Source: Apoderus coryli (Eukaryota; Arthropoda; Insecta; Coleoptera; Attelabidae). Taken from it: a DNA stretch of 64,000 nt. The stretch covers positions 14,446,001-14,510,000 of the forward strand of contig OU452204.1 of assembly GCA_911728435.2 (NCBI GenBank), in the 5' to 3' direction. Shown here in pieces: positions 1 to 60,761 of the stretch (position 1 is the first letter of the stretch; the number at the start of each line of letters is the position of its first letter). The position numbers and the translations under genes were made by a program. Below the pieces are notes generated by a model that was not told where the DNA came from, ran no database searches, and saw nothing but the letters and a program-made list of their open reading frames with translations.

Positions 1-1915
1 GATGTGTATGCAAATATTTAAACGAGGGTTTAGCAAAAATAAATGTTAAAAGGGCATCTGATATTTTACAAGCGCTCTTTTTTTATTAATGTAAACAAAT
101 TTATAATTAAAATGAAGGGAAAAAAGAATTTTAAAAATTATGCAATCATATAATATTATATATATATCTATATACAATTTATTTTGGATATAAAAATTGA
201 TTTCGACTCAATATTTTTCAGAATCAGTGCGTCATGTTTATACTATTATGGAAAGCAGTAAGTGTCTCGACTATCAATGTGTTTCAACGTAATATTAGGG
301 ACACTATTACTATATAACATACTACAGGACACATTTATAAACACCTTGTCCATTAATATCAGTTTTAAGGAAAAAATGAGTGCTAATAGATTCTCTATAG
401 TATTGTGGGATTTGTCAACACGTCAAGATGCTCCTTACCATATTTCTATAAATTGGAAACTTAAGACTAGTTACAATATTCGCGTATAATGTCTTTCATA
501 ATAAATTCAGGGTTAATTATTTAGGATTATTAAAAAAAAAACAAAACAATAAGTGGTACCTAGTGAGAAATTAATTATGTATTTAGGATAGACAAAATCT
601 AATAAAAGTATTGTCTGAAGCAAAGCGTCACATAAAATATGCAAATACATCTATTAATAATTATATTTAAATTTTTATTATTTTATTTTAGTGAAATTAG
701 GAATTATACATCTATAATTATAATAATGCTATTTAGAAAATGTTTACAAGATTAATTGATGTTTGGAAGAAATTCAGTTTATGTAATCATCATGTTTTAA
801 TGATGGTTTAAAAAAAGGAAAAGTTAATTGTAAAAAGATCAAACAAAAAATGTACCTATGTTGATATAAATAGAATATTAAACATATTTATATATATATT
901 TTTTTGGTTAGCACCATTTAATAGCTTTTTTTATTGTAAACTTGTATCAATTTTATTTCTTTATATTTATTTTGAGTCTATGTAATTTTATACAATGTGT
1001 TAATATATTTGTTGTATTTTGAAAATTGATGCGTATTAATTTGAATTAAATTTTACATGTTCATTATTATTATAATTTTTTAAGATTTTATTTACGAATC
1101 TATATACTTTTCCTAAACAAACATACAGTATTTATCGTTAGCAACACAATCAGAAAAATTAGCAACAGTAGGTTTTTCGCTCGCAATGACACATTGTATA
1201 ACGTTGTCGTAATGTTTTTATGTTCAAGATGGGTAAATCTCAGATACATCCATATGTCTCTGGTAAATCTACGTTTTATTTCTAGGCATATAAGAAAAAT
1301 TCAGAATTAATTTTAACCAATCAGAATCCAGTACAGCATTCTAAAATTTAAATTTTGCTTAAGTGCATAATTTAACGACATAGAAGTAATAATACAGACT
1401 GCCACATAGAGTTCTAGTTATTGATTTGTGGAAAGATGTTGGTTCCACTATTCTTAAAGAGATGTCGACTTGAGCTCATTTATTATTTCTTAAGTTTAGA
1501 GTCACAGTTCAGGGAGAACTGGAGTTCTAGAGCTGGGAGAATTTTATTTTGAAAATGACCGGTATTAAGGAAGATGTTACTCACTTTCGTCCACCATTTC
1601 ACGTTTAATGAATAAAACAGATTGTGTATCTGACGTATCTGTTTAACTAAAAATCGTTTTTACACCCACCATCAGTTTCTCGCGAGCTCGCCAGAAATAG
1701 CATGATTCGTTGTCCTATTAGGACGTCAGTTCGAAGACAGCGGAATCTCCACAGTCCTCGCCAAGTCCGATTTTAATGGTCTCATAGTGCTGTCATTGTT
1801 GAGAGGATACACAAGTATGAACACATTTGTTCACTGCAGGAAAGTGTTTTTATGTACGGAAATGCGAAAGCTCTTGGCAACCGATATTTGTTTCTATACT
1901 TTTAATGATAAGTAA
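1..1915. other. AT-rich stretch without a recognised gene
   Basis: No reading frame here looks like a known protein. The longest frame (262-489) has no recognisable domain and the base composition of its surroundings. Around 1630-1810 the sequence is less AT-rich but stops interrupt all frames. I see no tandem repeat or RNA gene. Confidence 0.5.
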
Positions 1916-1920
1916 AACTT

Positions 1921-2012
1921 CGTCTGCTCCACAAACAATTCTTTTATTTTATTAATATTGCGCCATAAACCATACATGTTTCGAGACACATTGTTCTCAT
2001 CATCAGTGGTCA
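1921..2012 (-). mobile_element. Remnant of hammerhead-tail retroelement
   Basis: Read on the minus strand this begins with an HHR motif and continues into a tail containing TTTGTGGAGCAGACG at 1921-1935, the same order and spacing as the fuller copies at 10410-10545 and 59069-59170. The distal tail block (CACTCC then ATGGAYTACTTC) is not found, so this copy is probably truncated. I could not identify a convincing target-site duplication. Confidence 0.55.
1969..2010 (-). ncRNA. Hammerhead ribozyme motif, type I-like
   Basis: The minus strand shows ACCA, CTGATGA, a stem II hairpin closed by GAGA..TCTC, then GAAACATGTA and TGGT. This matches the hammerhead order: stem I, CUGANGA core, stem II, GAAA, a minimal stem III (AC/GU), an NUH cleavage triplet (GUA) and stem I again. 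ACCA/TGGT would form stem I. One extra U sits between the core and stem II, as in the other copies in this window. Self-cleavage is inferred from the motif. Confidence 0.55.
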
Positions 2013-2292
2013 TTCAAAAAGGGGAGATTTAATACAGAAATTAATATAATATGCTTGTTCGAGTCTGGAATACAATAGTAATAATATCATTATAGGTTTT
2101 ATCAGTTTTGATTTATATTGGACTTACCATTTGTAGAAAAAATATTTTTATGACAATTTAAACATTAAAATTTTGTGAGTTCATTAGGGAATTACTATTA
2201 CAACTTTTTTAACTTAGAAACATTATATTGCTGTGCAACTTTAAATTTATATTTATTTTTCGACTTCATCTTGATTTAAATTTTTTAAATTT

Positions 2293-2523
2293 TTAAAATT
2301 CACAACGAACTATACTTTTAATTCCGAAATCCTTTGGTGACCCTAAACGTTTGCAGTTTGCACAGGTTTCTCCAAATGAACCGGGTGTTTTCAGCACTCT
2401 TACGAAGTTATAGCGTTTAACAGGATACCTACGTGAGTGGAAATCCAAGAAACGGCCGATTTCCAAGATAACGCCATGTTCCACAAACCGGACTGTTATG
2501 GAATTTTCATCTAGGCTACCCAA
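2293..2523 (-). pseudogene. Possible HTH fragment of a mariner-type transposase
   Basis: This 76-codon frame has less AT-rich sequence than its surroundings. Its middle part (RYPVKRYNFVRVLKTPGSFGE) and following GSPKDFG loosely resemble the helix-turn-helix region of insect mariner-type transposases (DUF4817-like: conserved P, a TGSF-like turn, then GRPR). There is no catalytic part nearby. The match is weak and the frame could be chance. Confidence 0.22.
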
Positions 2524-2588: not shown

Positions 2589-2718
2589 TGTTAATTAGTT
2601 TATTTATTGTTGTAATTATGTTCATTAACTCTTATAATAAAACACGATGTTTCATATTATAACCTTACTTTTATTCTTCTTCTTTTTTGGTATATCCTAT
2701 TAGGTCTATACCCTCACA
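2589..2718 (-). repeat. 3' LTR (element orientation)
   Basis: A 130-bp terminal repeat. In element orientation it starts TGTGAGGG and ends TTAACA, so it has the usual TG..CA ends. It is followed on the plus strand by the polypurine tract and preceded by the target duplication GGTAC. By eye it has no difference from the copy at 6876-7005. Confidence 0.95.
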
Positions 2719-2732
2719 TCCCCCTTTCTTTA
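2719..2732 (-). other. Polypurine tract
   Basis: In element orientation AAAGAAAGGGGGA lies directly against the 3' LTR, the expected position for priming of plus-strand DNA synthesis. It overlaps the stop codon of the Gag-Pol frame. Confidence 0.85.
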
Positions 2733-5700
2733 AAGGCTCAGTTTCTGAGGCGGTTTAACCATTCTACCTGAGGAAGTCTGTATAACAGGAATATAAGCAG
2801 CCTCAGAATCTGACTCATTACTAATATTAACATTTAACAAATTTTCATTGTTTACATCTACACTTTGAGTGGATTCCATTGAAACACTTTCAGTATCATT
2901 ATCACTTTCGATATTATTTTCACTATCACTATTCACACTGTCACTGTTCTCTAATTCTAAATAACATTTCTTTTCCTCTTTCTCTTCCTTTACAATTTTA
3001 GGAAATAAAAATGAAGAACGGTTTTCTTCCTGTCTCTGGCTGCTTAATCTTATAAATCTTCTATTTCTAAAATACTTCTTGCCGTTATTCATTTTTATTA
3101 CATATGTTCTATCTCTAACTTTTCTTACAATAATACCTGGTGTCCAAAGACCCTTAGGTTGAAGTTGAACAAATACTTTATCATTTTCATTTAGAGGTTT
3201 GAGAGCTTTAACATGTTTATCATGATAGGCTTTGGACTTTTCAGCTTTATTTTCTAAACATTTATTAAATTTACTTATTTTAATTTTATAAGGTTTTAAT
3301 TCAGAAGTTTTTATAGGTAATATTGTTCTTAGTTTTCTTGACATTAAAATTTCGGCAGGACTATAATTTAAATCAACTTTCATATTTCTATATAGTAAAA
3401 GTGACATATAAATATCTTTATTATCTTCTAAAGTCTTCTTAAATAAATTTTTAGCAATTTGCACGTTTCTTTCAGCCATACCATTACTTCTAGCATTAGT
3501 AGGTGAAGTAACTATATGATCAAATTCCCACTTTTTCGAAAACTGTATAAATTCTTTTGAAGTAAATTGAGGTCCCCCATCTGATACCAAAGTCAATGGT
3601 ATGCCGTGCCTAGCAAAAATACTTTTCATCTTAATTATAATATTATGACTTGTCGTATCAGCTTCAAGATTTTCTAATTCAATGTATTTAGAATAATAGT
3701 CTATTACAATTAAATATTTGTCCTTTTTAAATTCAAATAGATCACATCCTAATTTGTTCCAAGGTAGGTGTGGAATCGAATGATTCATTAACGGTTCATG
3801 TTGTTGACTTTTAGAAAATTTTGAACAAATCTCGCAATTAGAAATTACTTGTTTAATATCGTTCGTCATTCCAACCCAAAAAAGAGTTTCTTTGGCTAGT
3901 GAAAGACATTTATTTACACCCATATGGTTATAATGAATTCTTTGCAGCATTTCATTACGTAAATCTTTAGGTATTACAATTGCTTTATCTTTAAAAATTA
4001 TGTCGTCAACCACGGTTAAATCACTTTTATATTGAGCATATTTCCTAACACATATAGGCAAGTTTTTATTATTATTATTAGGCCAACCATTTAATATGAC
4101 TGTTTTAAGCATTTGTATTTCCTGATCACTGTTTGAGACTCGTTGAAATTCATTCCATTTTTCTTTAGTAATATTTATTTCTGACACTATTAAACAAACA
4201 TGATCTGAAATTTGAGTATCCATATCCAATTTTTGATTTTCATTTAGGAAAGCACGCGAAAGAGCATCTGCAATAATTAGATCTTTACCGCGTTTGTACT
4301 TTATATCGAAATCGTATTTTTGAACTTGTAGAAGCATTCTTTGTAATCGAGCTGGACATTTATTGAGCGGTTTTTTAAATATGTTAATTAAAGGTAAGTG
4401 ATCTGTCTCGACCATAACTTTTTTTCCAAACACGAATTGATGAAATTTCTCTAACCCTACCACTATTGCCAATAATTCCTTTTCGATTTGTGCATATCTA
4501 CATTGAGTTTCTGTAAAAGCCATCGACGCGTATGCGCACGGTAAGTTATTCTGTAGTAGCACCGCACCGCAACCAGCCTTTGAAGCATCTACTGACACCA
4601 CCGTTTCTTTACTTACATCATAAAACTGTAATACAGGTGTTTTTGTTAATATCTTTTTAATATCTTCAAATGCTGACTGGTGTTCCGGCTGCCACTCAAA
4701 ACTAGTTTCATTTTTAAGTAGACTGCGCAAGATTAGCGTTTTATTTGAGAAATTATTTATAAATTTACTGATATATGTAAGCATACCAAGTAAGCGTTGT
4801 ACATCTTGTTTGCATTCTGGACGAGGCATGTTCTTAATTGCATTTATTTTAGAGTCGTCTGGACTTACTCCTTTGTCCGAAATTATATGACCTAAATATT
4901 TGACCTCAGTATGACCAAACTTGCATTTTTCTAAATTGAATTTAACATTATGAGTTCTAGCTAAACTCAGAACTTTTCTAAGACGTTCGTCATGCTCTCT
5001 TTTAGTAGATCCCCAAACAAAAATATCATCTATATAGATGTCAACACCATCAATGTCGAAAATATTCTTAAACTTGGTTTGAAAAACCTCGGGTGCACAC
5101 TTTATACCATATGGAAGTCTTAGGAATTTATATCTACCATGTGGTGTACTAAAAGTGCATAAATTAGAACTTGCTTCGTCCAGAGGGATTTGATAAAATC
5201 CTTGAGTCGCATCTAAAGTGCTAAAATACTTTGCATTACTTAATTTACTTGTAATTTGATCAAGTGTAGGAATTTTACAATACTCACGCTTGATTGCTTC
5301 ATTTAAATCACGTGGGTCCAAACAAATGCGTAATTTATTATTTGGTTTCCTCACAAGAACAAGTGCATTTACCCAGTCTGAAGCTCCATTTACTTTTTGA
5401 ATGATTTTTTGTTTTTCGAGTTCATCCAAACTTTCTTTAAGTGCTTCTAACAAAGGCAACGCCACCCTTCGTGTGGGGTGAACCACAGGTTTTGCCCCTT
5501 CCTTAATATTTATATGAAATGGATCTCCAATACAACCTATACCCGTAAATAAATCTTTGTAATTTCTAATTATTTCAGAGTATTCCTTAGCATTTGAATT
5601 AATATTATCTATTTTCATGATTAGATTTAACTTAATACTCGATTCCAAACCTAAAATGGCTTCTGTATTAGAGTTAACAACGTAGAAATTTAGGTCGTGA

Positions 5701-6797
5701 CTATTAGTATTTCTCTTACATGAAATTACACAAGTACCAATTACTTTTAATGTGTCCCCTGTATATGAATTTAAGGTAACATTAGTCTTTTCTAACTCAT
5801 GATACGAAAATCCCAAAGACCTAAATATTTTGAAAGGCAAAATATTCGCCATGGCGCCTGTATCTATTTTAAAGCTAATCTCTTTATTATTAATTTGAAT
5901 ATCAGCACGCCACTGTCGATTATTTTGTTCATTTATAGCTAAGACATTTTTATTTACACTTCCCACATAGACAAAATTATTGTCCTCAGATTCTCTAACA
6001 TCATTTGAAATTGAATCAATTGTTTCTGTAACTTCGCGTATTTGGTTATTTTTCTTACATTTTAGATTAGACTTTTTCTTTTTAAAATATACAGCTTCAA
6101 AATGATTTGAAATTTTACAAAAGTTACATATTTTATTAAAAGCAGGGCATTTATTAATTAAATGTTCTTTCTTACCACATTTTTTACAGTCTTTTACAAC
6201 TTGTTGTTTACCATGTCCTCTTGTAAAAACTGCATCAATTTCCGTTTTTATTTTCGATGACTGGTCCATGAGTTGACTGCGAACTTTTGAAGACTCGATA
6301 ACATGACATAGTTCAATTGCGTTGTCCAATGTGAGTGAGTCGTTTTCTAGTAACCTCTCCCGTACAACTGGATTTCGCACTCCACACGTTATCATTGTTT
6401 TAATTAGGTCATCTTGTAGATTTGCGAGCTTGCATTTACTAGCTTTCTTTTTGAGTTCAACTATGAAATCTTCCGTGCTTTGACCTTCTTCTTGTATATA
6501 TGTAAAGAACTGGTACCTCGCGAAGGCTACATTTTCCTTACCTATAAAATGGTCTTGAAATTTCTTCATTAACGGTTCTAATTTATCCGTTTCATTTGGT
6601 TCAAATTTGAATGTAGTATACACTTTGAAACCATCATCACCTATGTAATGTAACATCTGTGCACACTGCGTTTTCTCATCTTTTTTATTTACTTCGGATG
6701 CAATTAAATAATTTTCAAATCTGGCCCTCCATAGTTTCCAGTTTTCAGGCACATTGCCCTTAAACGACAACGGAACAATACCGCGATTATCACCCAT
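2730..6797 (-). CDS. Gag-Pol polyprotein of LTR retrotransposon
   Basis: A single 1355-aa frame encodes everything needed for reverse transcription and integration. Residues 1-200 are Gag. A CCHC zinc knuckle follows (C204-C207-H212-C217), then a second knuckle at ~224-237 whose last cysteine position is tyrosine. The aspartic protease motif DTGA is at 312-315. Reverse transcriptase spans ~440-640 with YIDD at 588-591. RNase H has D737, E774, D799 and D844. Integrase has a zinc-binding HHCC region (~955-991) and the catalytic triad D1019, D1073, E1109. The C-terminus is acidic and low in complexity. No stop, frameshift or Gag/Pol frame change is present, so Gag and Pol would be made as one fusion. 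There is no envelope gene. All catalytic residues I can check are in place. Confidence 0.95.
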   Translation of the reverse strand: MGDNRGIVPLSFKGNVPENWKLWRARFENYLIASEVNKKDEKTQCAQMLHYIGDDGFKVYTTFKFEPNETDKLEPLMKKFQDHFIGKENVAFARYQFFTYIQEEGQSTEDFIVELKKKASKCKLANLQDDLIKTMITCGVRNPVVRERLLENDSLTLDNAIELCHVIESSKVRSQLMDQSSKIKTEIDAVFTRGHGKQQVVKDCKKCGKKEHLINKCPAFNKICNFCKISNHFEAVYFKKKKSNLKCKKNNQIREVTETIDSISNDVRESEDNNFVYVGSVNKNVLAINEQNNRQWRADIQINNKEISFKIDTGAMANILPFKIFRSLGFSYHELEKTNVTLNSYTGDTLKVIGTCVISCKRNTNSHDLNFYVVNSNTEAILGLESSIKLNLIMKIDNINSNAKEYSEIIRNYKDLFTGIGCIGDPFHINIKEGAKPVVHPTRRVALPLLEALKESLDELEKQKIIQKVNGASDWVNALVLVRKPNNKLRICLDPRDLNEAIKREYCKIPTLDQITSKLSNAKYFSTLDATQGFYQIPLDEASSNLCTFSTPHGRYKFLRLPYGIKCAPEVFQTKFKNIFDIDGVDIYIDDIFVWGSTKREHDERLRKVLSLARTHNVKFNLEKCKFGHTEVKYLGHIISDKGVSPDDSKINAIKNMPRPECKQDVQRLLGMLTYISKFINNFSNKTLILRSLLKNETSFEWQPEHQSAFEDIKKILTKTPVLQFYDVSKETVVSVDASKAGCGAVLLQNNLPCAYASMAFTETQCRYAQIEKELLAIVVGLEKFHQFVFGKKVMVETDHLPLINIFKKPLNKCPARLQRMLLQVQKYDFDIKYKRGKDLIIADALSRAFLNENQKLDMDTQISDHVCLIVSEINITKEKWNEFQRVSNSDQEIQMLKTVILNGWPNNNNKNLPICVRKYAQYKSDLTVVDDIIFKDKAIVIPKDLRNEMLQRIHYNHMGVNKCLSLAKETLFWVGMTNDIKQVISNCEICSKFSKSQQHEPLMNHSIPHLPWNKLGCDLFEFKKDKYLIVIDYYSKYIELENLEADTTSHNIIIKMKSIFARHGIPLTLVSDGGPQFTSKEFIQFSKKWEFDHIVTSPTNARSNGMAERNVQIAKNLFKKTLEDNKDIYMSLLLYRNMKVDLNYSPAEILMSRKLRTILPIKTSELKPYKIKISKFNKCLENKAEKSKAYHDKHVKALKPLNENDKVFVQLQPKGLWTPGIIVRKVRDRTYVIKMNNGKKYFRNRRFIRLSSQRQEENRSSFLFPKIVKEEKEEKKCYLELENSDSVNSDSENNIESDNDTESVSMESTQSVDVNNENLLNVNISNESDSEAAYIPVIQTSSGRMVKPPQKLSL

Positions 6798-6860
6798 TGT
6801 GTATTTATAAATGGTGAAAATCTTATTTATAATTATTCATTTAGTTATTACTATGAGCTT

Positions 6861-6875
6861 ATACTGACTGCGCCA
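6861..6875 (-). other. Primer-binding site, tRNA-Ser-like
   Basis: Directly inside the 5' LTR the element strand reads TGGCGCAGTCAGTAT. The TGGCGCAGTC start resembles the PBS of the Drosophila 17.6/297 group and Mag elements, which use tRNA-Ser. The primer identity is inferred from that resemblance. Confidence 0.7.
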
Positions 6876-7005
6876 TGTTAATTAGTTTATTTATTGTTGT
6901 AATTATGTTCATTAACTCTTATAATAAAACACGATGTTTCATATTATAACCTTACTTTTATTCTTCTTCTTTTTTGGTATATCCTATTAGGTCTATACCC
7001 TCACA
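6876..7005 (-). repeat. 5' LTR (element orientation)
   Basis: The 130-bp partner of 2589-2718, flanked on its outer side by the second copy of the GGTAC duplication. The AATAAA-like and A-rich stretches within could serve transcript ending, but no promoter element can be assigned with confidence. Confidence 0.95.
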
Positions 7006-9852: not shown

Positions 9853-10409
9853 TACTTTAGACTAAATAATAATAAGCAGTATGCAGTTATATATAAACCA
9901 ATCAGTGTCGGACTGGCAAAATTTAAATGAAATTTGGCACATCTGGATAGATAATTTAGATACATCTTTTTACGAAAACAATATGATTTTATTTCTACCA
10001 GTGGCGTGCGAACGGGCACATCTTCGCACAATTTTAATGAAAAATATGGTACGCCACTGATTTTTTAAGAAGCAAAAACTATTTCTAGAATCCTTGTTAA
10101 ATGTACAAGGAAAAAAAGCTCTTTACTTTTTTTCGTTTGACACACCGTTTGCAAGTAAAAAATTAAAATATCTACTGATTTCTGAAAAAAAATTAAACAA
10201 AAACGAAAATAACAACAACAATAACAAAATTAAAGAAAATTAGAGGTAAAATGACAAAAATTGGTTGTAGTCCACCCACCTCAATACATTTTCGACATCC
10301 TCTCACTAACGCATTTATTGCAGCAGATACTAAAATTGATTTTGAAATGGTCTTGGCCGAATCTCTCGAGGATTCTGATATGTCCAAATATGGATATTAT
10401 GGTAATTTG

Positions 10410-10545
10410 AAGAAGTAGTCCATACTCTTAGTGGAGTGCTAAGTTAATACAAAACAAACAAATATCGTCAGCTCCACAAATCTTTTATTTGAAAAAATCA
10501 ATTAAAACATACATGTTTCGAGGATTGAGATCCTCATCATCAGTG
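10410..10545 (-). mobile_element. Minimal 136-bp hammerhead-tail retroelement with TSD
   Basis: On the minus strand the insertion begins CACTGATGATGAGG (the HHR core) and runs through GAAACATGTA, TTTGTGGAGCTGACG (10466-10480), CACTCCAC (10431-10438) and ATGGACTACTTC (10411-10423). It is bracketed by a 13-bp duplication, TTATGGTAATTTG (10397-10409) and TTATGGGAATTTG (10546-10558), with one mismatch. Removing it and one repeat restores the transposase reading NSHN-NIHIW, which supports the boundaries independently. The element has no coding capacity, so it must be mobilised in trans. Confidence 0.8.
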
Positions 10546-10547
10546 TT
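10503..10547 (-). ncRNA. Hammerhead ribozyme motif, type I-like
   Basis: Minus strand: AACA, CTGATGA, one U, GAGGAT-CTCA-ATCCTC as a perfect 6-bp stem II, then GAAACATGTA and TGTT. AACA/TGTT can close stem I, and GUA is a permitted cleavage triplet. The 5' half of stem I comes partly from the flanking duplicated target, so pairing depends on the insertion site. Confidence 0.6.
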
Positions 10548-11691
10548 ATGGGAATTTGTTACCCCACGTCTGGTAAAAGAAGACTTATCCGTCCAAAAAG
10601 TCTTATGTAAATAGTCAGGATTTTCTTCCGTCGAGTTTAAAAGCCACTGGCAAAATCTTATTCTTTTTTCAGTATCACCAGGGTGCAAATTCTGAACTGT
10701 AAGTGATATGCATGTCTGTGGTCATTCGTAATATTTTATACTTAGCTATGCGCAGGTTCTGAGCTGTCTTCCGAGAGCTCAGCCTCGGATTGTTGTCGCA
10801 AGTACGAAGTATATGATTATTCTGAATATTATATTGACGGTTTCTGTTCCGTTCGTTATTAACACGCAGGCCAAAATTATGAAAGTTCTGATGAAAACGC
10901 GAAACCCGACCATCTGAAACTCTTCTATTTAGCATCTACGATATTCACGAACTGCCGCTTGTGCATTTCCATCACAAAATCTGTAGCAAAAATGAATATC
11001 TGCGTATTCGTTGTTAGAAAAAAGCATTTCTCAGATTAATATCTACTTACACAATGTCACAATGTCGAAAGTAAATTTTCTGACACAATTCAATTAACTG
11101 TCAGAATAAAATGAAAAACATTGACAGTAGTAGTCTTTTTTTTTTCACGGCCTACTGCTATAGATTGATTGAACTCCAGTTGCTTAAATAATTTTAATTT
11201 TTTGGCTGGAAATTGAACAAGGATTCGAGAAATAAAACAAAAACTTAAAAACAGTGGCGCACCATTTTTTTTATCCATTAAAATTGCCCGAAGATGTGTC
11301 CGTACGTCAATGGTAGAATTAAAATGATATTTAGACTATTTTTTTCATGGGGGTGTTGGCCTCCATCTCACCTATTTTTGTCCGCGTTGCCAGTCCAACA
11401 CTGAATGCAATTTTATACAAAATGTAAAAATACTACTGCAAAAAAGGTTAGGCTATTTATATTCTAACTCAAAAATATTAACCCAAACTTAAATTAATTA
11501 CACTTAATTCAGCAAAAGCCGAACAGTACAAACTAAAACAAAATTAATGATTTCAACACAAAATACCAAAAAATTAGATCCAACTCTATGTAATTTATTT
11601 GCTATAATATAACATTAATAAAAAAATCAATTTAATGCTTTATTTCTAAGAAGAACATGAAACGTCTGAAGCAGTTTATAAGTTTTATAAT

Positions 11692-14536: not shown

Positions 14537-14888
14537 GTATGTTTAGTTATTAATTTGAAATAAAGCCTTAACTATATTTTTGGAAAAAAATTAATATTAA
14601 AAGTATAACGAATGGAATTAAAAAAGTGATATTTTGTTATGTTTACCGCACTGGACTTGATATTAATTTATTATTATTAATTTAAAATTTTAGTACCTAC
14701 CTATCGTAAGTTTCCATTCTGGCCTTCAGCGCGAACATCCTTATCAATAAGTTGCTAATGGATAAAAAATGATGATAGGATCAATCATTATTGTAAAAAT
14801 CAAACCTTGCGATTTTTTTATATTTATTGAATTAACATAATAGATTTTTATAAGAAATTATTTTACCAAAAATATTTAGTTTCTCAAG

Positions 14889-14952
14889 ATAAAAAGAACG
14901 CATAAGAGAAAACAAACGTAAAATGGACAACAAATTTGTACATAAGTCTATA
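14889..14952 (+). repeat. Left inverted repeat of PLE
   Basis: Inverted copy of 15914-15983, sharing GTACATAAGTCTATA and the GAGAAAACAAACGT segment with a few small indels. It overlaps the start of the RT remnant. Confidence 0.7.
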
Positions 14953-15165: not shown

Positions 15166-15358
15166 TGTGACAATTGTCACATAATAATGGTTACACTCTT
15201 TCAACCATTATGGACTGTATTTTAGATTCTACGGAAGATTTAGACCTTCTTTTAGGGTTATACGTCCTCTTGCAGAAAACAAAACATATGTCTCCCGTAC
15301 TTATGCCGGTAGTTATTGTCTTAAGATTGCAAAAACGCTAAGAATTAGTAATCCTGAC

Positions 15359-15661
15359 ATGGTCGTTAGTTTTTCAGGAGTTTATAGACTGTCTTGTCAG
15401 GATTGCAATAGCATTTATATAGGCCAATCTGGTCGTCGGATCCTTACGATATTCAAGGAACATTTGCATTATTATAAGCGTTATAAGAATACTCATATTT
15501 TTAACACTCCATCTAATTTTCCAAACACAACAAATCATAACTTTGATACTGGAAATTTCGGAAATCATGGACGCTATAAAACAAATAAAAGTGTCACTTG
15601 CTTGAATGACCAACCAGCTTTTATTGAGTCCTCAATTATTAATTCCCTTTTCAGTTTGTAA
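15359..15661 (+). CDS. GIY-YIG endonuclease domain of PLE (partial)
   Basis: The frame has SGVYRLSCQDCNSIYIGQSG, then RRILTIFKEHL: the GVY..YIG core, the R of the QSGR motif and the downstream EH typical of PLE endonucleases. A Cys pair between GIY and YIG is also typical of the PLE type. In PLEs this domain nicks target DNA for reverse transcription. The C-terminal half after FKEHLHYY is recognisable in style but shortened, and the RT it should be fused to is broken upstream. The ATG is internal, so this is a remnant and not a gene start. Confidence 0.75.
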   Translation: MVVSFSGVYRLSCQDCNSIYIGQSGRRILTIFKEHLHYYKRYKNTHIFNTPSNFPNTTNHNFDTGNFGNHGRYKTNKSVTCLNDQPAFIESSIINSLFSL

Positions 15662-15913: not shown

Positions 15914-15983
15914 TATAGACTTATGTACAAATTTGTTGTCCATTTACGTTTGTTTTCTCTTATGATGCGTTCGTTTTTATCTT
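15914..15983 (-). repeat. Right inverted repeat of PLE
   Basis: Inverted counterpart of 14889-14952. It ends a few bases before the hammerhead motif at 15991. Confidence 0.7.
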
Positions 15984-15990
15984 TATTGTA

Positions 15991-16026
15991 GGACTGATGA
16001 TGGCTTGTTAAGCAGAAACTAGTTTC
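15991..16026 (+). ncRNA. Hammerhead ribozyme motif of PLE
   Basis: GGA, CTGATGA, TGGCTTGTTAAGCA (stem II GCTT/AAGC with GTT loop), GAAACTAGTT, TCC. GGA/TCC can form stem I, AC/GU a minimal stem III, and GUU would be the cleavage triplet. 28 bases further on lies GTGTGGAGTTGAC (16053-16065), close to the tail motif of the small HHR elements. That links the two families. Confidence 0.6.
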
Positions 16027-16526
16027 CGTTTTCATAATTGTATTAAATATAGTGTGGAGTTGACTTTGAAAGTTTTTGTTTGTTTTCTTTTATTTGAAGC
16101 TGACACTCGGATAATAGATAATTTATTTCGTTTATTATTTGTTTGTTATATATATTTATTGTTCTATTGCAATTATTGATCACCGGCTTCTTTTCATGAA
16201 AAAAAGGCAACTTTACTACTTGCATTAATAACAGATTTTTTTGGCAACAATTTGAGGCATTTTACCAAACTGATGAATTCATACCATCTGTGTTAGCAGC
16301 CGTTTCCGTTTTGGTATTTAAAGAAAAAACGAGAATTTCCAAAAAAAAATTGCCTTAATCCATAATGCAGAATATTTCCTATAAAGTTCCATGTAGGTCT
16401 CATTTATCAGATGTATATAATATTGTCATGATGAGTATTGTGAACCATCCAGACTGGGTAAACTTTAACTGATACATACTTCTTACCGAATTTTCAATAA
16501 GACTGCTTTTTATATAATTGGGATTA

Positions 16527-16566
16527 TGACTGAGGATAAAGGTTTAAACCTTCGAAACATGTCTCG
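16527..16566 (+). ncRNA. Hammerhead ribozyme motif
   Basis: CTGAGGA is an allowed CUGANGA core. It is followed by one U, then AAAGGTTTAAACCTT as a perfect stem II, and CGAAACATGTC. GUC is the most common natural cleavage triplet. Stem I is weak (GA/TC), so activity is doubtful. Confidence 0.5.
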
Positions 16567-16629
16567 CTAAAAATAGACAATAGAAATAAAAATAAGACAG
16601 ATTTGTGGAGGAGGCGTATTAAATTATCA

Positions 16630-17366
16630 TGCTAGGCAGTTGGATGCTACTGCGAACGACTGGTTTTCAAGTAATTTAGTGAAACTTAATTTTCGAGCTC
16701 TATTGGTCTCAGTGTCGTAGGTACGGCAAGCTTGTTGGGTTGGGTTGGGCTGGGCTCCACACATTGCTTGCCTCAAGAGTAGGTAAGTTATCGTCTGGTA
16801 TTTTTGCCGTTCGCAGGCTCAGGATCTGTCTGAGTCAGCATGCTAGGAGGACGGTGTTGTCGTTGTTTCACACCCATGTTTGTTATGGGGTGATACTCTG
16901 GGGCAATTCGTCTTCGGCTATTCAGATTTTTAGAATGCAGAAAACGGTTATCCGTATACCCGGAAATTTAGAGGATTGTAAGCCAATTTTCAAATCTTTA
17001 AATATATATTATCAGCTGCTTGAGATCCATAGATGTAAGCGTGAGTTTCGTACTAACTCGGCTTTCCACAAATATAACACTACGTCTGTGCTTCCAAGAA
17101 TTGTTTGCATGTGCAACTTCCTCAAGAAGTGCAGCAATATAATTCTTGCAGGTTTAGAACACCATAAGGTCATTCTTGCATTTTATTCCCTGGATGAGTA
17201 TTTTGATGATTAATTGTTTGTCTGTGTAGATATTAATTGCTTGTAATTTTTAATTTTACGATATATTAGCTGTGTTTTTTATATTTGAGTGTTTGTGTAA
17301 CCATTATATTTTGACTTGCTGCAATTGTTTTATACAAAACGTAGTCAATAAAGATGATTGTTATTA
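16630..17366 (+). pseudogene. 5'-truncated LINE, RT C-terminal part
   Basis: It starts within RT (LDATANDWFSSNLVKLN, the segment after the catalytic box) and continues in a 157-codon frame at 16740-17213 with LSLFHTHVCYGVILWGNSS and the MQKTVIRI stretch typical of insect LINE ORF2 C-termini. The 3' UTR ends AATAAAGATGATTGTTATTA. A frameshift separates the first segment from the second. Confidence 0.65.
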
Positions 17367-43730: not shown

Positions 43731-44104
43731 TTTTTTTTTTCTGAAGTAATCCATTTATCGAGGAGTGAATAGTATGATTTGAATAAAACGACGTCTACTC
43801 CACAAAATGATCTATGGTTGGAAATTTGTCAATTATTTCCAAATTTCCAACCATTTAACTATATTTTTTATTAATTTAACAACTCAATTTATTTCCAACA
43901 AGGTGATATGTATAAACGTTTAAATCAAGGTAAAACTGTCTATTAACATTTGTATGAAGTACGACCCTCACATCTGACAATACTGTATAAGGTTCCTTAA
44001 GCCACTGATGATGGACGTGTAGTCCGAAACATGTCTGGCATTTAAAACAAGGTTTTAACGTATATATATAGATCATTTTGTGGAGTAGACGTCATTTTAT
44101 TCAA
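43731..44104 (-). mobile_element. Hammerhead-tail snap-back retroinsertion with TSD
   Basis: A 374-bp insertion between perfect 13-bp repeats ATGAACAACAATC (43718-43730 and 44105-44117). On the minus strand its 3' end is the tail CACTCCTCGATAAATGGATT followed by ACTTCAG and A10, a poly(A) signature of target-primed reverse transcription. Its 5' end is an inverted copy of the internal tail: 43778-43815 pairs with 44068-44105 with one mismatch and includes GACGTCTACTCCAC. An inner hairpin (GGTTGGAAATTTG..AATTTCCAACC) lies next to the 3' arm. Confidence 0.75.
44000..44041 (+). ncRNA. Hammerhead ribozyme motif, GUC type
   Basis: AGCCA, CTGATGA, TGGACGTGTAGTCC (stem II GGAC/GTCC), GAAACATGTC, TGGCA. 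GCCA/TGGC forms a 4-bp stem I with further A-T pairing beyond, and GUC is the preferred cleavage triplet. It sits in the inverted 5' arm of the insertion, so it is antisense to the insertion's poly(A) end. Confidence 0.6.
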
Positions 44105-44119
44105 ATGAACAACAATCAT

Positions 44120-55621: not shown

Positions 55622-55736
55622 TTAAAGAAATAGTCCATTCTTAAGTGGAGTGAATTTAATGACAAAAGGAAATAAAACGTCAAACTCCACGAAATCATTT
55701 TAGAGATTTCGTGGAGTTTGACGTTTTATTTCCTTT
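55622..55736 (-). mobile_element. 115-bp hairpin retroinsertion with TSD
   Basis: It lies between TCAATTCCTGAATT (55608-55621) and TCAATCCCTGAATT (55737-55750), a 14-bp TSD with one mismatch. The insert has a perfect 33-bp inverted repeat (55664-55696 against 55705-55737) with an 8-nt loop, containing ACGTCAAACTCCAC. Outside the hairpin on the minus strand is the tail CACTCCACTTAAGAATGGAC followed by TATTTC. There is no HHR, only the tail snapped back on itself. Confidence 0.75.
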
Positions 55737-58138: not shown

Positions 58139-58438
58139 ACAATATTGAAATTATCGCTTTTAAGTTATTTATCAAAAATTTTTGAATTCATTTTACATAA
58201 TGATATTAACAAACATGTGGCTACTAAATTTCACAACATGGTCTTATTAGAGATAGGTCAACGGTGACAAATTTGGCAATTCGGAAAATGCTGCACGGGC
58301 CAATCATAGACAAAAATATCGAATATTTCAAAATGTCACAACACTTTGTACTAGGAAAACAGTTTATTTTTAAATTCTTAAGTGAAGTTTTATGAAAGGA
58401 ACATTGTGAAAACAAAAATGAATGCTAAATGTGATAAT

Positions 58439-58718
58439 TGGGAATATTTACATTGAAAAACTATCAAAATATTCGATAAATTTAGGAATATTTAGATTGA
58501 AATTAACTCTCAAAATATTCGATAAAATTACGAATATTTACATTGAACTTAACTCTCAAAATATTCGATAAAATTAGGAATATTTAGATTGAACTTAACT
58601 TTCAAAATATTCGATAAAATTAGGAATATTTACATGGAACTTAAAGATCAAAATATTCGATAAATTTCGGAATATTTAGATTGAACTTAACTCTCAAAAT
58701 ATTCGATAAATTTAGGAA
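58439..58718 (+). repeat. 46-bp minisatellite, left block
   Basis: About six units of 46 bp, built around CAAAATATTCGATAAAWTTA and GGAATATTTAGATTGAACTT. Units differ at a few positions, such as ACATTGAACTTAAATATC in place of AGATTGAACTTAACTCTC. The array is cut by the insertion at 58719-59200. Confidence 0.9.
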
Positions 58719-58777
58719 TAATGGAATGAAAGACGTCTGCTCCACAATATAATCTTCTATAATTAAATCAATGTACA

Positions 58778-58819
58778 TCCATACATGTTTCGAGTGTATA
58801 TACTTTCATCATCAGTGGT
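58778..58819 (-). ncRNA. Hammerhead motif in left arm, stem II weakened
   Basis: Same order as its partner at 59069-59112, but two substitutions give GAAAGTATATACACTC as stem II, which pairs poorly. It is antisense to the element's 3' tail. Confidence 0.45.
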
Positions 58820-59068
58820 AATAGTAGGGTCCAAATTAGAAAGCTAATGCATTATTCAAGGATCAATTGATAACAATTACAGATCTGAAAGTAGGTACCT
58901 ATTACAAAGTAAGTGAACCAGTTCAAACGATCTCAAACTATGTGTAACTTACCAGAGATCGTTTGAACTGGTTCACTTACTTTGTAATAGGTACCTACTT
59001 TCAGATCTGTAATTGTTATCAGTTGATCCTTGAATAATGCATTAGCTTTCTAATTTCGACCCTACTAT

Positions 59069-59112
59069 TACCACTGATGATGAGAGTATATACTCTCGAA
59101 ACATGTATGGTT
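59069..59112 (+). ncRNA. Best-preserved hammerhead ribozyme motif
   Basis: TACCA, CTGATGA, one U, GAGAGTATATACTCTC (stem II, 5 bp plus A-T pairs), GAAACATGTA, TGGTT. ACCA/TGGT forms stem I, AC/GU stem III, and GUA is the triplet. It is in sense with the element tail, 32 bases upstream of TTGTGGAGCAGACGTC. Confidence 0.65.
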
Positions 59113-59203
59113 GTACATTGATTTAATTATAGAAGATTATATTGTGGAGCAGACGTCTTTCATTCCATTACACTTTCACTCCTCCTCATGGATTATTTTT
59201 CGA

Positions 59204-59850
59204 AAATTTAGGAATATTTAGATTGAACTTAACTTTCAAAACATTCGATAAAATTAGGAATATTTCGATTGAACTTAACTTTCAAAACATTCGATAAAAT
59301 TAGGAATATTTACATTGAACTTAAATATCAAAATATTCGATAAATTTAGGAATATTTAGATTGAACTTAACTCTCAAAATATTCGATAAAATTAGGAATA
59401 TTTAGATTGAACTTAACTTTCAAAATATTTAATAAAATTGGGAATATTTACATGGAACTTAAATATCAAAATATTCGATAAATTTAGGAATATTTAGATT
59501 GAACTTAATCTCAAAATATTCGATAAAATTAGGAATATTTAGATTGAGCTTAATCTCAAAATATTCGATAAAATTAGGAATATTTAGATTGAACTTAACT
59601 TTCAAAAAATTCGATAAAATTAGGAATATTTACATTGAACTTAAATATCAACATATTCGATAAATTTAGGAATATTTAGATTGAACTTAACTCTCAAAAT
59701 ATTCGATAAATTTAGGAATATTTAGATTGAACTTAACTCTCAAAATATTCGATAAATTTAGGAATATTTAGATTGAACTTAACTCTCAAAATATTCGATA
59801 AAATTAGGAATATTTACGTTGAACTTAACTATCAAAATATTCGATATTTT
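59204..59850 (+). repeat. 46-bp minisatellite, right block
   Basis: About fourteen units continuing the array after the insertion. Units with the ACATTGAACTTAAATATC variant recur every few units, hinting at a higher-order repeat. The array ends at TCGATATTTTG near 59850. Confidence 0.9.
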
Positions 59851-60671: not shown

Positions 60672-60761
60672 TCTGAAGTAATCCATCTTCGAGAGGAGTT
60701 GAATGTGTAAGACACAAATAAAAGAATAGTTTGGTGGAGTAGACGTTGTTTTATTTGTGTC
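60672..60761 (-). mobile_element. 90-bp hairpin retroinsertion with TSD
   Basis: It sits between perfect 12-bp repeats TTATTTATATTT (60660-60671 and 60762-60773). The minus strand runs GACACAAATAAAA, a 25-nt loop containing AACGTCTACTCCACC, TTTTATTTGTGTC, then CAACTCCTCTCGAAGATGG and ATTACTTCAGA. The hairpin arms (60711-60723 and 60749-60761) are perfect. It is in the putative intron 56 bp after the adenylyl-cyclase-like exon. Confidence 0.75.

Follow-up and report, generated by a model that had tools for sequence, protein, structure and literature searches.

A 136-bp hammerhead-bearing insert in a beetle transposase gene is very probably a severely truncated Penelope-like element copy

The insert and the gene that it interrupts

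The window (the whole 64-kb stretch of DNA analysed here) carries on its minus strand a decayed transposase gene interrupted by a 136-bp insert (10410..10545; 5' end at 10545, 3' end at 10410), which is made up of a hammerhead region, a spacer, a GTGGAG block and a tail. Read along the minus strand, the insert starts with C-ACTGATGATG and finishes with ...ATGGACTACTTCTT, its first base being the C of CACTGATGA, at the edge of the ribozyme. The predicted 13-bp flanking duplications are there: the two copies of the target-site duplication (TSD) flank the insert exactly (CAAATTCCCATAA on its 5' side, 10546..10558; CAAATTACCATAA on its 3' side, 10397..10409; both on the minus strand) and are identical at 12 of 13 positions. 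Such agreement is rare at random placements, as two points 136 bp apart in the same window did as well in 5 of 20000 trials with a slack of 2, and in none of 3000 with a slack of 3. The original prediction had also raised the prospect that the repeats belong to a longer local duplication; they are not a piece of one, since the first base beyond them mismatches on either side.

Upstream of the insert the host transposase is readable at 10545..10703 (minus strand; ..NLHPGDTEKRIRFCQWLL..GVTNSHN), the last base of this reading being the first base of the insert, and downstream it continues at 10333..10407 (minus strand; NYHNIHIWTYQNPREIRPRPFQNQF). The two TSD copies encode the same protein stretch (GVTNSHN before the insert, NYHNIHIW after it), and the flanks joined without the insert give GVTNYHNIHIW. 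A protein search with the joined reading returned three relatives at E <= 0.01 among 4 candidates: P0001 (86% identity over 89% of the searched region; domains DDE_3 and DUF4817), in which GVTNYHNIHIW runs uninterrupted, and P0002 (74%) and P0003 (54%), both from the beetle Exocentrus adspersus, which read GITNYHNIHIW; NYHNIHIW is uninterrupted in all three. Since both repeats encode the same stretch and the relatives are uninterrupted, the insertion and the duplication stand independently of the TSD statistics. The insertion is real, and the interrupted protein fixes its ends almost to the base. The expectation of a clean insertion into a transposase pseudogene, whose reading would be restored by removing the insert, was right at the junction (GVTNYHNIHIW, as in P0001) but not gene-wide: the host gene is otherwise broken by stops and frameshifts and lacks its middle relative to P0001, so the reading is restored locally only. 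The host transposon has TIR-like arms at 9980-10116 and 11198-11331, which are 74% alike.

Both of the conserved tail blocks that had been proposed are found and recur at other loci, namely the GTGGAG block (10472..10477, minus strand) and the end of the tail, which resembles that of Penelope-like elements (PLEs; 10410..10436, minus strand; CTCCAC ... ATGGACTACTTCTT) and contains the motifs CTCCAC (10431-10436) and ATGGACTACTTC (10412-10423). The stability of the folded insert is not unusual (z -0.89). A tail stem pairing GTGGAG with CTCCAC was considered and set aside: covariation is absent and three compared tails carry CTCCTC, which breaks one pair, hence we claim no structure here. The insert is non-coding and holds no ORF with the telomerase-like reverse transcriptase (RT) or the GIY-YIG endonuclease by which a PLE is recognised. 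Thus, it can only be a derived PLE copy, and the proteins for its mobilisation must be encoded elsewhere; the original view of a TSD-flanked retroelement insertion mobilised in trans is upheld as regards the insertion, with the proteins presumably supplied from outside it.

A small hammerhead ribozyme at the 5' end

The hammerhead core that had been recognised at the very 5' end is of the Penelope kind, a small type I ribozyme (10502..10548, minus strand) identified by covariation and by a model from which it was left out. It consists of stem I (AACA/TGTT), CUGAUGA, an extra U, stem II (GAGGAU/AUCCUC), GAAA and stem III (AC/GU), the last having 2 bp and a 2-nt loop; the TSD takes in the outer two A's of stem I. 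The window holds seven such hammerheads, all with the type I core (CUGANGA, GAAA, stems I-III and UH at the cut) and with one extra U and AC-NN-GU in common. A model made from the seven recovers every one of them at E <= 8e-11 and nothing further better than 0.3 in the window; when built without the insert, it scores the insert's hammerhead at 56.6 bits. In the alignment of the window copies 88.5% of the cells pair and 13 cells are changed on both sides (each value reached by 0 of 500 shuffles), the count of further pair types being weaker (reached by 58 of 500).

Applied to 250 kb more of the same genome, the window-built model found 25 further hammerheads at E <= 0.01 (22 distinct rows). In their alignment, which was fitted to the structure and so leans toward it, 92.6% of the cells pair and 57 are doubly changed (each 0 of 500 shuffles), while the tally of pairs that show changes in both partners is again weaker (reached by 37 of 500). 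As stems I and II covary and the leave-it-out model finds the insert, we regard its hammerhead core as real on comparative grounds; stem III is invariant, so covariation neither supports nor opposes it. The Rfam hammerhead models, which had been suggested as a check, gave no match on the insert, the small variant lying below their reach. Three weak Rfam matches to other RNAs, all under the gathering scores, were dismissed as chance.

A small hammerhead in a pseudo-LTR (pLTR) is a PLE feature that the insert displays as predicted from its sequence, and its minimal type I core, devoid of a normal helix III, is like the small dimer-cleaving PLE hammerheads (Cervera and de la Pena 2014; Lunse, Weinberg and Breaker 2017; cited in PMC7761336; here and below, comparisons with published systems refer to excerpts of the cited papers). 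The loop of stem III differs from that of the lizard PLE PAc (Anolis carolinensis), having 2 nt in the insert and none in the printed PAc RNA by our own reading (PMC11167929). The extra U between CUGANGA and stem II, found in 7 of 7 window hammerheads, can also be made out in the printed lizard RNA (PMC11167929, again our reading).

The cut is predicted between 10510 and 10509, that is, 36 nt inside the insert, which agrees with the earlier remark that the 5' end does not sit at the expected cleavage site. Hence, the RNA would have been copied uncut through the hammerhead, and the latter did not set the end. This position bears on whether the insert could be a metazoan retrozyme, i.e. derive from a circular RNA that arises from hammerhead-cleaved tandem repeats and is then reverse-transcribed. 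Metazoan non-LTR retrozymes are likewise small non-coding elements with a type I hammerhead (PMC7229834), and PLEs have been proposed to mobilise them (PMC7761336). The insert, however, has a single hammerhead with no tandem copy in the window, and therefore neither the tandem units nor the second ribozyme of a retrozyme; its ends are unrelated to the predicted cut, and it measures 136 bp as against repeats of 150-450 bp (PMC7229834). We deem a retrozyme origin exceedingly improbable.

Related inserts in the same genome

The family was surveyed in 314 kb, comprising the 64-kb window and 250 kb of the same genome taken from the initial 540 kb of a single 46-Mb contig. None of the sampled stretches overlaps the window, and only two of them (L001 and L006) have 60-mers in common with it (72 and 78, respectively). 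A family profile has 27 matches at E 1e-3 in this sample, 9 of them in the window. Fourteen matches fall into 8 pairs or two-armed groups, and 13 were scanned as singles. A TSD was found in six of the eight groups (none in L005 and L021, best score 5) and accepted in three of the 13 singles, seven of which showed nothing. Among the singles, the candidates dropped were an A-rich one (L001), an AT microsatellite (L017) and one in L011 that overlapped itself. Scanning of the window pieces J, K, D and E gave no acceptable TSD. A T-rich repeat (15/16) by hammerhead E was rejected as a TSD because the 3' copy can be aligned with sequence of the insert itself and because an inverted repeat spans the supposed junction. 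Hammerhead D (16525..16571, plus strand; found with the window-built model) passes straight into an apparent non-LTR RT fragment (16529-16640), as judged by eye, the ORF that follows having no Pfam match.

Nine TSD-bounded inserts were recovered from the 314 kb, and the TSDs of the eight besides 10410-10545 are 12-18 bp long. Within the window, insert B (1907..2309, minus strand; 403 bp) is one-armed and tailless, with a TSD of 13/13 and a hammerhead at 1965-2011. Four others have two head-to-head arms, one of them tailed: C (43731..44105; 375 bp; TSD 12/12, or 17/18 with an overlapping boundary; hammerhead at 44000-44043), F/G (58721..59203; 483 bp; two hammerheads; TSD 13/13), which lies inside a 46-bp satellite, and two that have no hammerhead, H (60672..60761; 90 bp; TSD 12/12) and I (55622..55736; 115 bp; TSD 13/14). 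Outside the window, inserts were delimited in L015 (988 bp; TSD 14/16), in L024 (657 bp; TSD 13/13) and across L020/L021 (247 bp; TSD 13/13). Random placements as good or better numbered, out of 3000, 0 for the insert at 10410-10545 (A), 5 for B, 1 for C, 6 for F/G, 0 for H and 22 for I; these controls cover the window inserts only and are mild, as the loci were picked after inspection and the satellite raises the null. The head-to-head arrangement with short TSDs that typifies PLEs is present in the family (n=6), the insert itself being one-armed.

The satellite around F/G, with a period of 46 bp, extends over 58436-59846, and its part at 59203-59846 contains 14 copies (92% matches). In insert C, a run of ten A's (43731-43740) stands between the end of the tailed arm and the TSD on the minus strand and does not occur in the other listed tail ends. 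A divergent hammerhead pair of another small family (CTGAGGATG ... GAAACGCGCGTC) is seen at L022:1465-1579, 19 bp apart. Pattern scans of genome and viral contig collections found nothing, nor did BLAST against phages and plasmids.

Two discrete 3' ends and a single tail

The 3' ends of the family fall at two discrete sites. Eight arm ends lie 25-32 nt past the start of the GTGGAG block (GTGGAT in L024), at what we call site 1; they belong to B, to one arm each of C, F/G, H, I, L015 and L024, and to the insert across L020/L021. Tailed arms run on to ATGGAYTAYTTC, at 60-69 nt beyond the block (73 in C if its A-run is included), from which a tail of ~35-43 nt follows, and it is at this tail site that the insert at 10410-10545 ends. 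The positions of these ends, rather than enzymology, point to two discrete internal RT start sites parted by a 30-40 bp tail, as is characteristic of PLEs.

Exactly one arm is tailed in all six TSD-bounded two-armed inserts. Two further pairs without a detectable TSD (L005 and L021) have one tailed arm each; in L005 the arms are not alike in sequence and may have been inserted separately. The divergent hammerhead pairs of L011 and L022 were kept out of the count, as the exact GTGGAG block is absent in all four of their arms (the plus arm of L022 has a tail-like motif 228 nt in). If tails were distributed at random on half of the arms, six out of six would be expected with a probability of 1/64 (our arithmetic), and the pattern suggests one start site per strand. 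Tentatively, and with somewhat more doubt than conviction, we propose that PLE insertion could be a two-strand reaction in which the two RNA start sites are divided between the nicked strands, each strand being extended from its own site. On this view, a head-to-head insert would consist of one tailed and one site-1 arm, and one-armed inserts like 10410-10545 would represent half-products.

The one-tail pattern extends the optional tail described on one of the inverted pLTRs of a rotifer Penelope (PMC3846280). In the literature searched, whose coverage left out the two original PLE-hammerhead papers, we found no paper on an obligate one-tail rule. A family this dense (27 profile matches in 314 kb) provides many TSD-bounded ends with which the origin of one-tailed inverted inserts can be tested in sequence data, and makes tractable an open PLE question, namely how inserts that are inverted and one-tailed could arise from two internal start sites when both strands are extended.

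The 5' boundary does not recur in 314 kb

The original prediction had taken the insert for a non-autonomous unit of minimal size whose 5' end is set at the hammerhead core. When the copies in the 314 kb were tabulated with their boundaries and TSDs, such a recurrent boundary failed to appear: a start at the ribozyme edge occurs in 0 of the 8 other TSD-bounded inserts, which leaves 10410-10545 as the sole one among nine. In the two other one-armed TSD-bounded inserts, 299 and 117 bp precede the profile match, and the arms of the two-armed inserts end at varied points. The lack of other copies sharing these boundaries, which the prediction itself had named as decisive against it, is thus what the 314 kb examined reveal. 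We also looked at 32 hammerheads for a TSD flush with stem I; three scored at least 9, a score that 23 of 600 random points reach as well, and by our reading the flush TSD appears convincing in the insert only, where alone the right-hand copy coincides with the family 3' end.

A dedicated unit of this kind, SINE-like and mobilised repeatedly by PLE proteins, would have a fixed 5' end at the hammerhead core and a fixed 3' tail. Both ends of the insert do match a module reaching from the ribozyme to the start site, and detectable homology between independent loci begins at the ribozyme, given that among the 21 pairs of seven upstream regions only A-E beats all its 60 shuffles (28 vs 27). Against this, the 5' end is shared by none of the other eight TSD-bounded inserts and only 1 of the 32 hammerheads has a convincing flush TSD. 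SINE hallmarks are likewise wanting, as a scan that tolerated up to 2 mismatches detected neither a pol III A box nor a B box, and no 5' end recurs in 314 kb. Moreover, the RNA required for the activity of the lizard PLE (the first 172 nt of its ORF) extends beyond the start site at 111-118 (PMC11167929) and would therefore be missing from a copy that ends at the tail. We consider a dedicated unit distinctly unlikely.

What lies upstream of the ribozyme elsewhere in the family speaks to another origin, that of a solo pLTR which remained, with its TSD, after two direct pLTRs of a larger PLE had recombined. Such forms have been described in Adineta vaga (PMC3846280), but the insert has no pLTR sequence at all upstream of its ribozyme, while the F/G palindrome carries ~128 bp there on each side and several copies have in common (by eye) a TAATGTTACC-like upstream motif. 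Recombination alone leaves the missing upstream part unexplained, and we find this origin very improbable.

As for the early stop itself, the folded hammerhead may have arrested the RT, which would make the ribozyme edge a recurrent end and is a variant compatible with truncation. The 5' end indeed falls within stem I, where a structured RNA could conceivably halt the enzyme; recurrence, however, amounts to 1 of 9 TSD-bounded inserts, and both B and the L020/L021 insert were read through the ribozyme. An arrest of this sort seems unlikely to us.

A probable truncated Penelope-like element copy

The reading that we favour, and regard as highly probable, is that the insert is a severely 5'-truncated PLE copy and not a dedicated minimal unit. 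Its shared 3' end is as expected of 5'-truncated copies, and the close match to published PLE features leads us to file the insert as PLE-derived. For a random truncation, a 5' end placed precisely at the ribozyme edge is a mild coincidence, which counts against this reading.

We envisage that a PLE protein made elsewhere nicked the DNA within the old transposase gene and that reverse transcription, target-primed as in the published lizard system, had the tail site inside a PLE RNA as its starting point. Approximately 136 nt would have been copied, through the GTGGAG block and the hammerhead, before copying halted early, probably within the 5' strand of stem I; joining of the cDNA end to the far side of a staggered cut would then account for the 13-bp TSD. 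The two A's common to stem I and the TSD may have been supplied by the target by chance or, being present in both, would allow for a 2-nt microhomology junction. Lying immediately upstream of the start site, the hammerhead would have been copied as a passenger.

In the lizard PLE PAc, RT starts at two internal sites, the sequence between which is the PLE tail, and the protein cleaves and extends both DNA strands, while hammerhead mutants insert normally in vitro (PMC11167929). PAc, of the Penelope/Poseidon group, resembles the beetle family in its small hammerhead with a very short stem III adjoining the start of the copied region, in its two internal start sites parted by a tail and in a repetitive pLTR arrangement (PMC11167929); it is a distant relative, and differs from the insert, which has no ORF and a mere 136 bp. 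From ATG to cut there are 28 nt in the insert vs 26 in the lizard element, and from ATG to end 128 nt vs 111-118 (PMC11167929). The Penelope of the rotifer Adineta vaga has inverted pLTRs, one of which may bear a 31-bp tail; its TSDs measure 8-10 bp, and one copy has a microhomology 5' junction (PMC3846280). Thus, short TSDs, inverted pLTRs, an optional single tail and a microhomology 5' junction are points of likeness, whereas the TSDs of the beetle family are longer (12-18 bp) and the insert is devoid of the upstream pLTR part (PMC3846280). As an object, the insert would be an ordinary and very short PLE remnant, and its value rests in its clean junctions.

Endonuclease ORFs and a neighbouring retroelement

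An intact PLE of the insert's exact family was not found in the 314 kb, so its source element is postulated. PLE-like endonucleases do exist in this genome, as two ORFs attest. One (15188..15661, plus strand) is GIY-YIG-like by motif and is followed, ~330 bp after its stop, by a hammerhead at 15989-16032; it probably belongs to a PLE, even though it gave no Pfam match and a protein search returned no relative. The second (L007:3071-3603) has a Pfam GIY-YIG match (E 3.4e-6, above the curated cut-off), and after the domain a hammerhead-like CTGAAGA...CGAAACG was spotted by eye (L007:4031-4063); judged by these features, L007 is another PLE-like lineage.

Around the endonuclease ORF of the window there is an inverted repeat (14886-14952 / 15914-15983; 93%), which probably represents the remains of a head-to-head arm. 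A further element, by resemblance an LTR-type retroelement, occupies 2589-7005. It is bounded by two 130-bp direct repeats that are identical to each other (2589-2718 / 6876-7005), its minus strand contains a 1368-aa ORF, and it is probably a young insertion.
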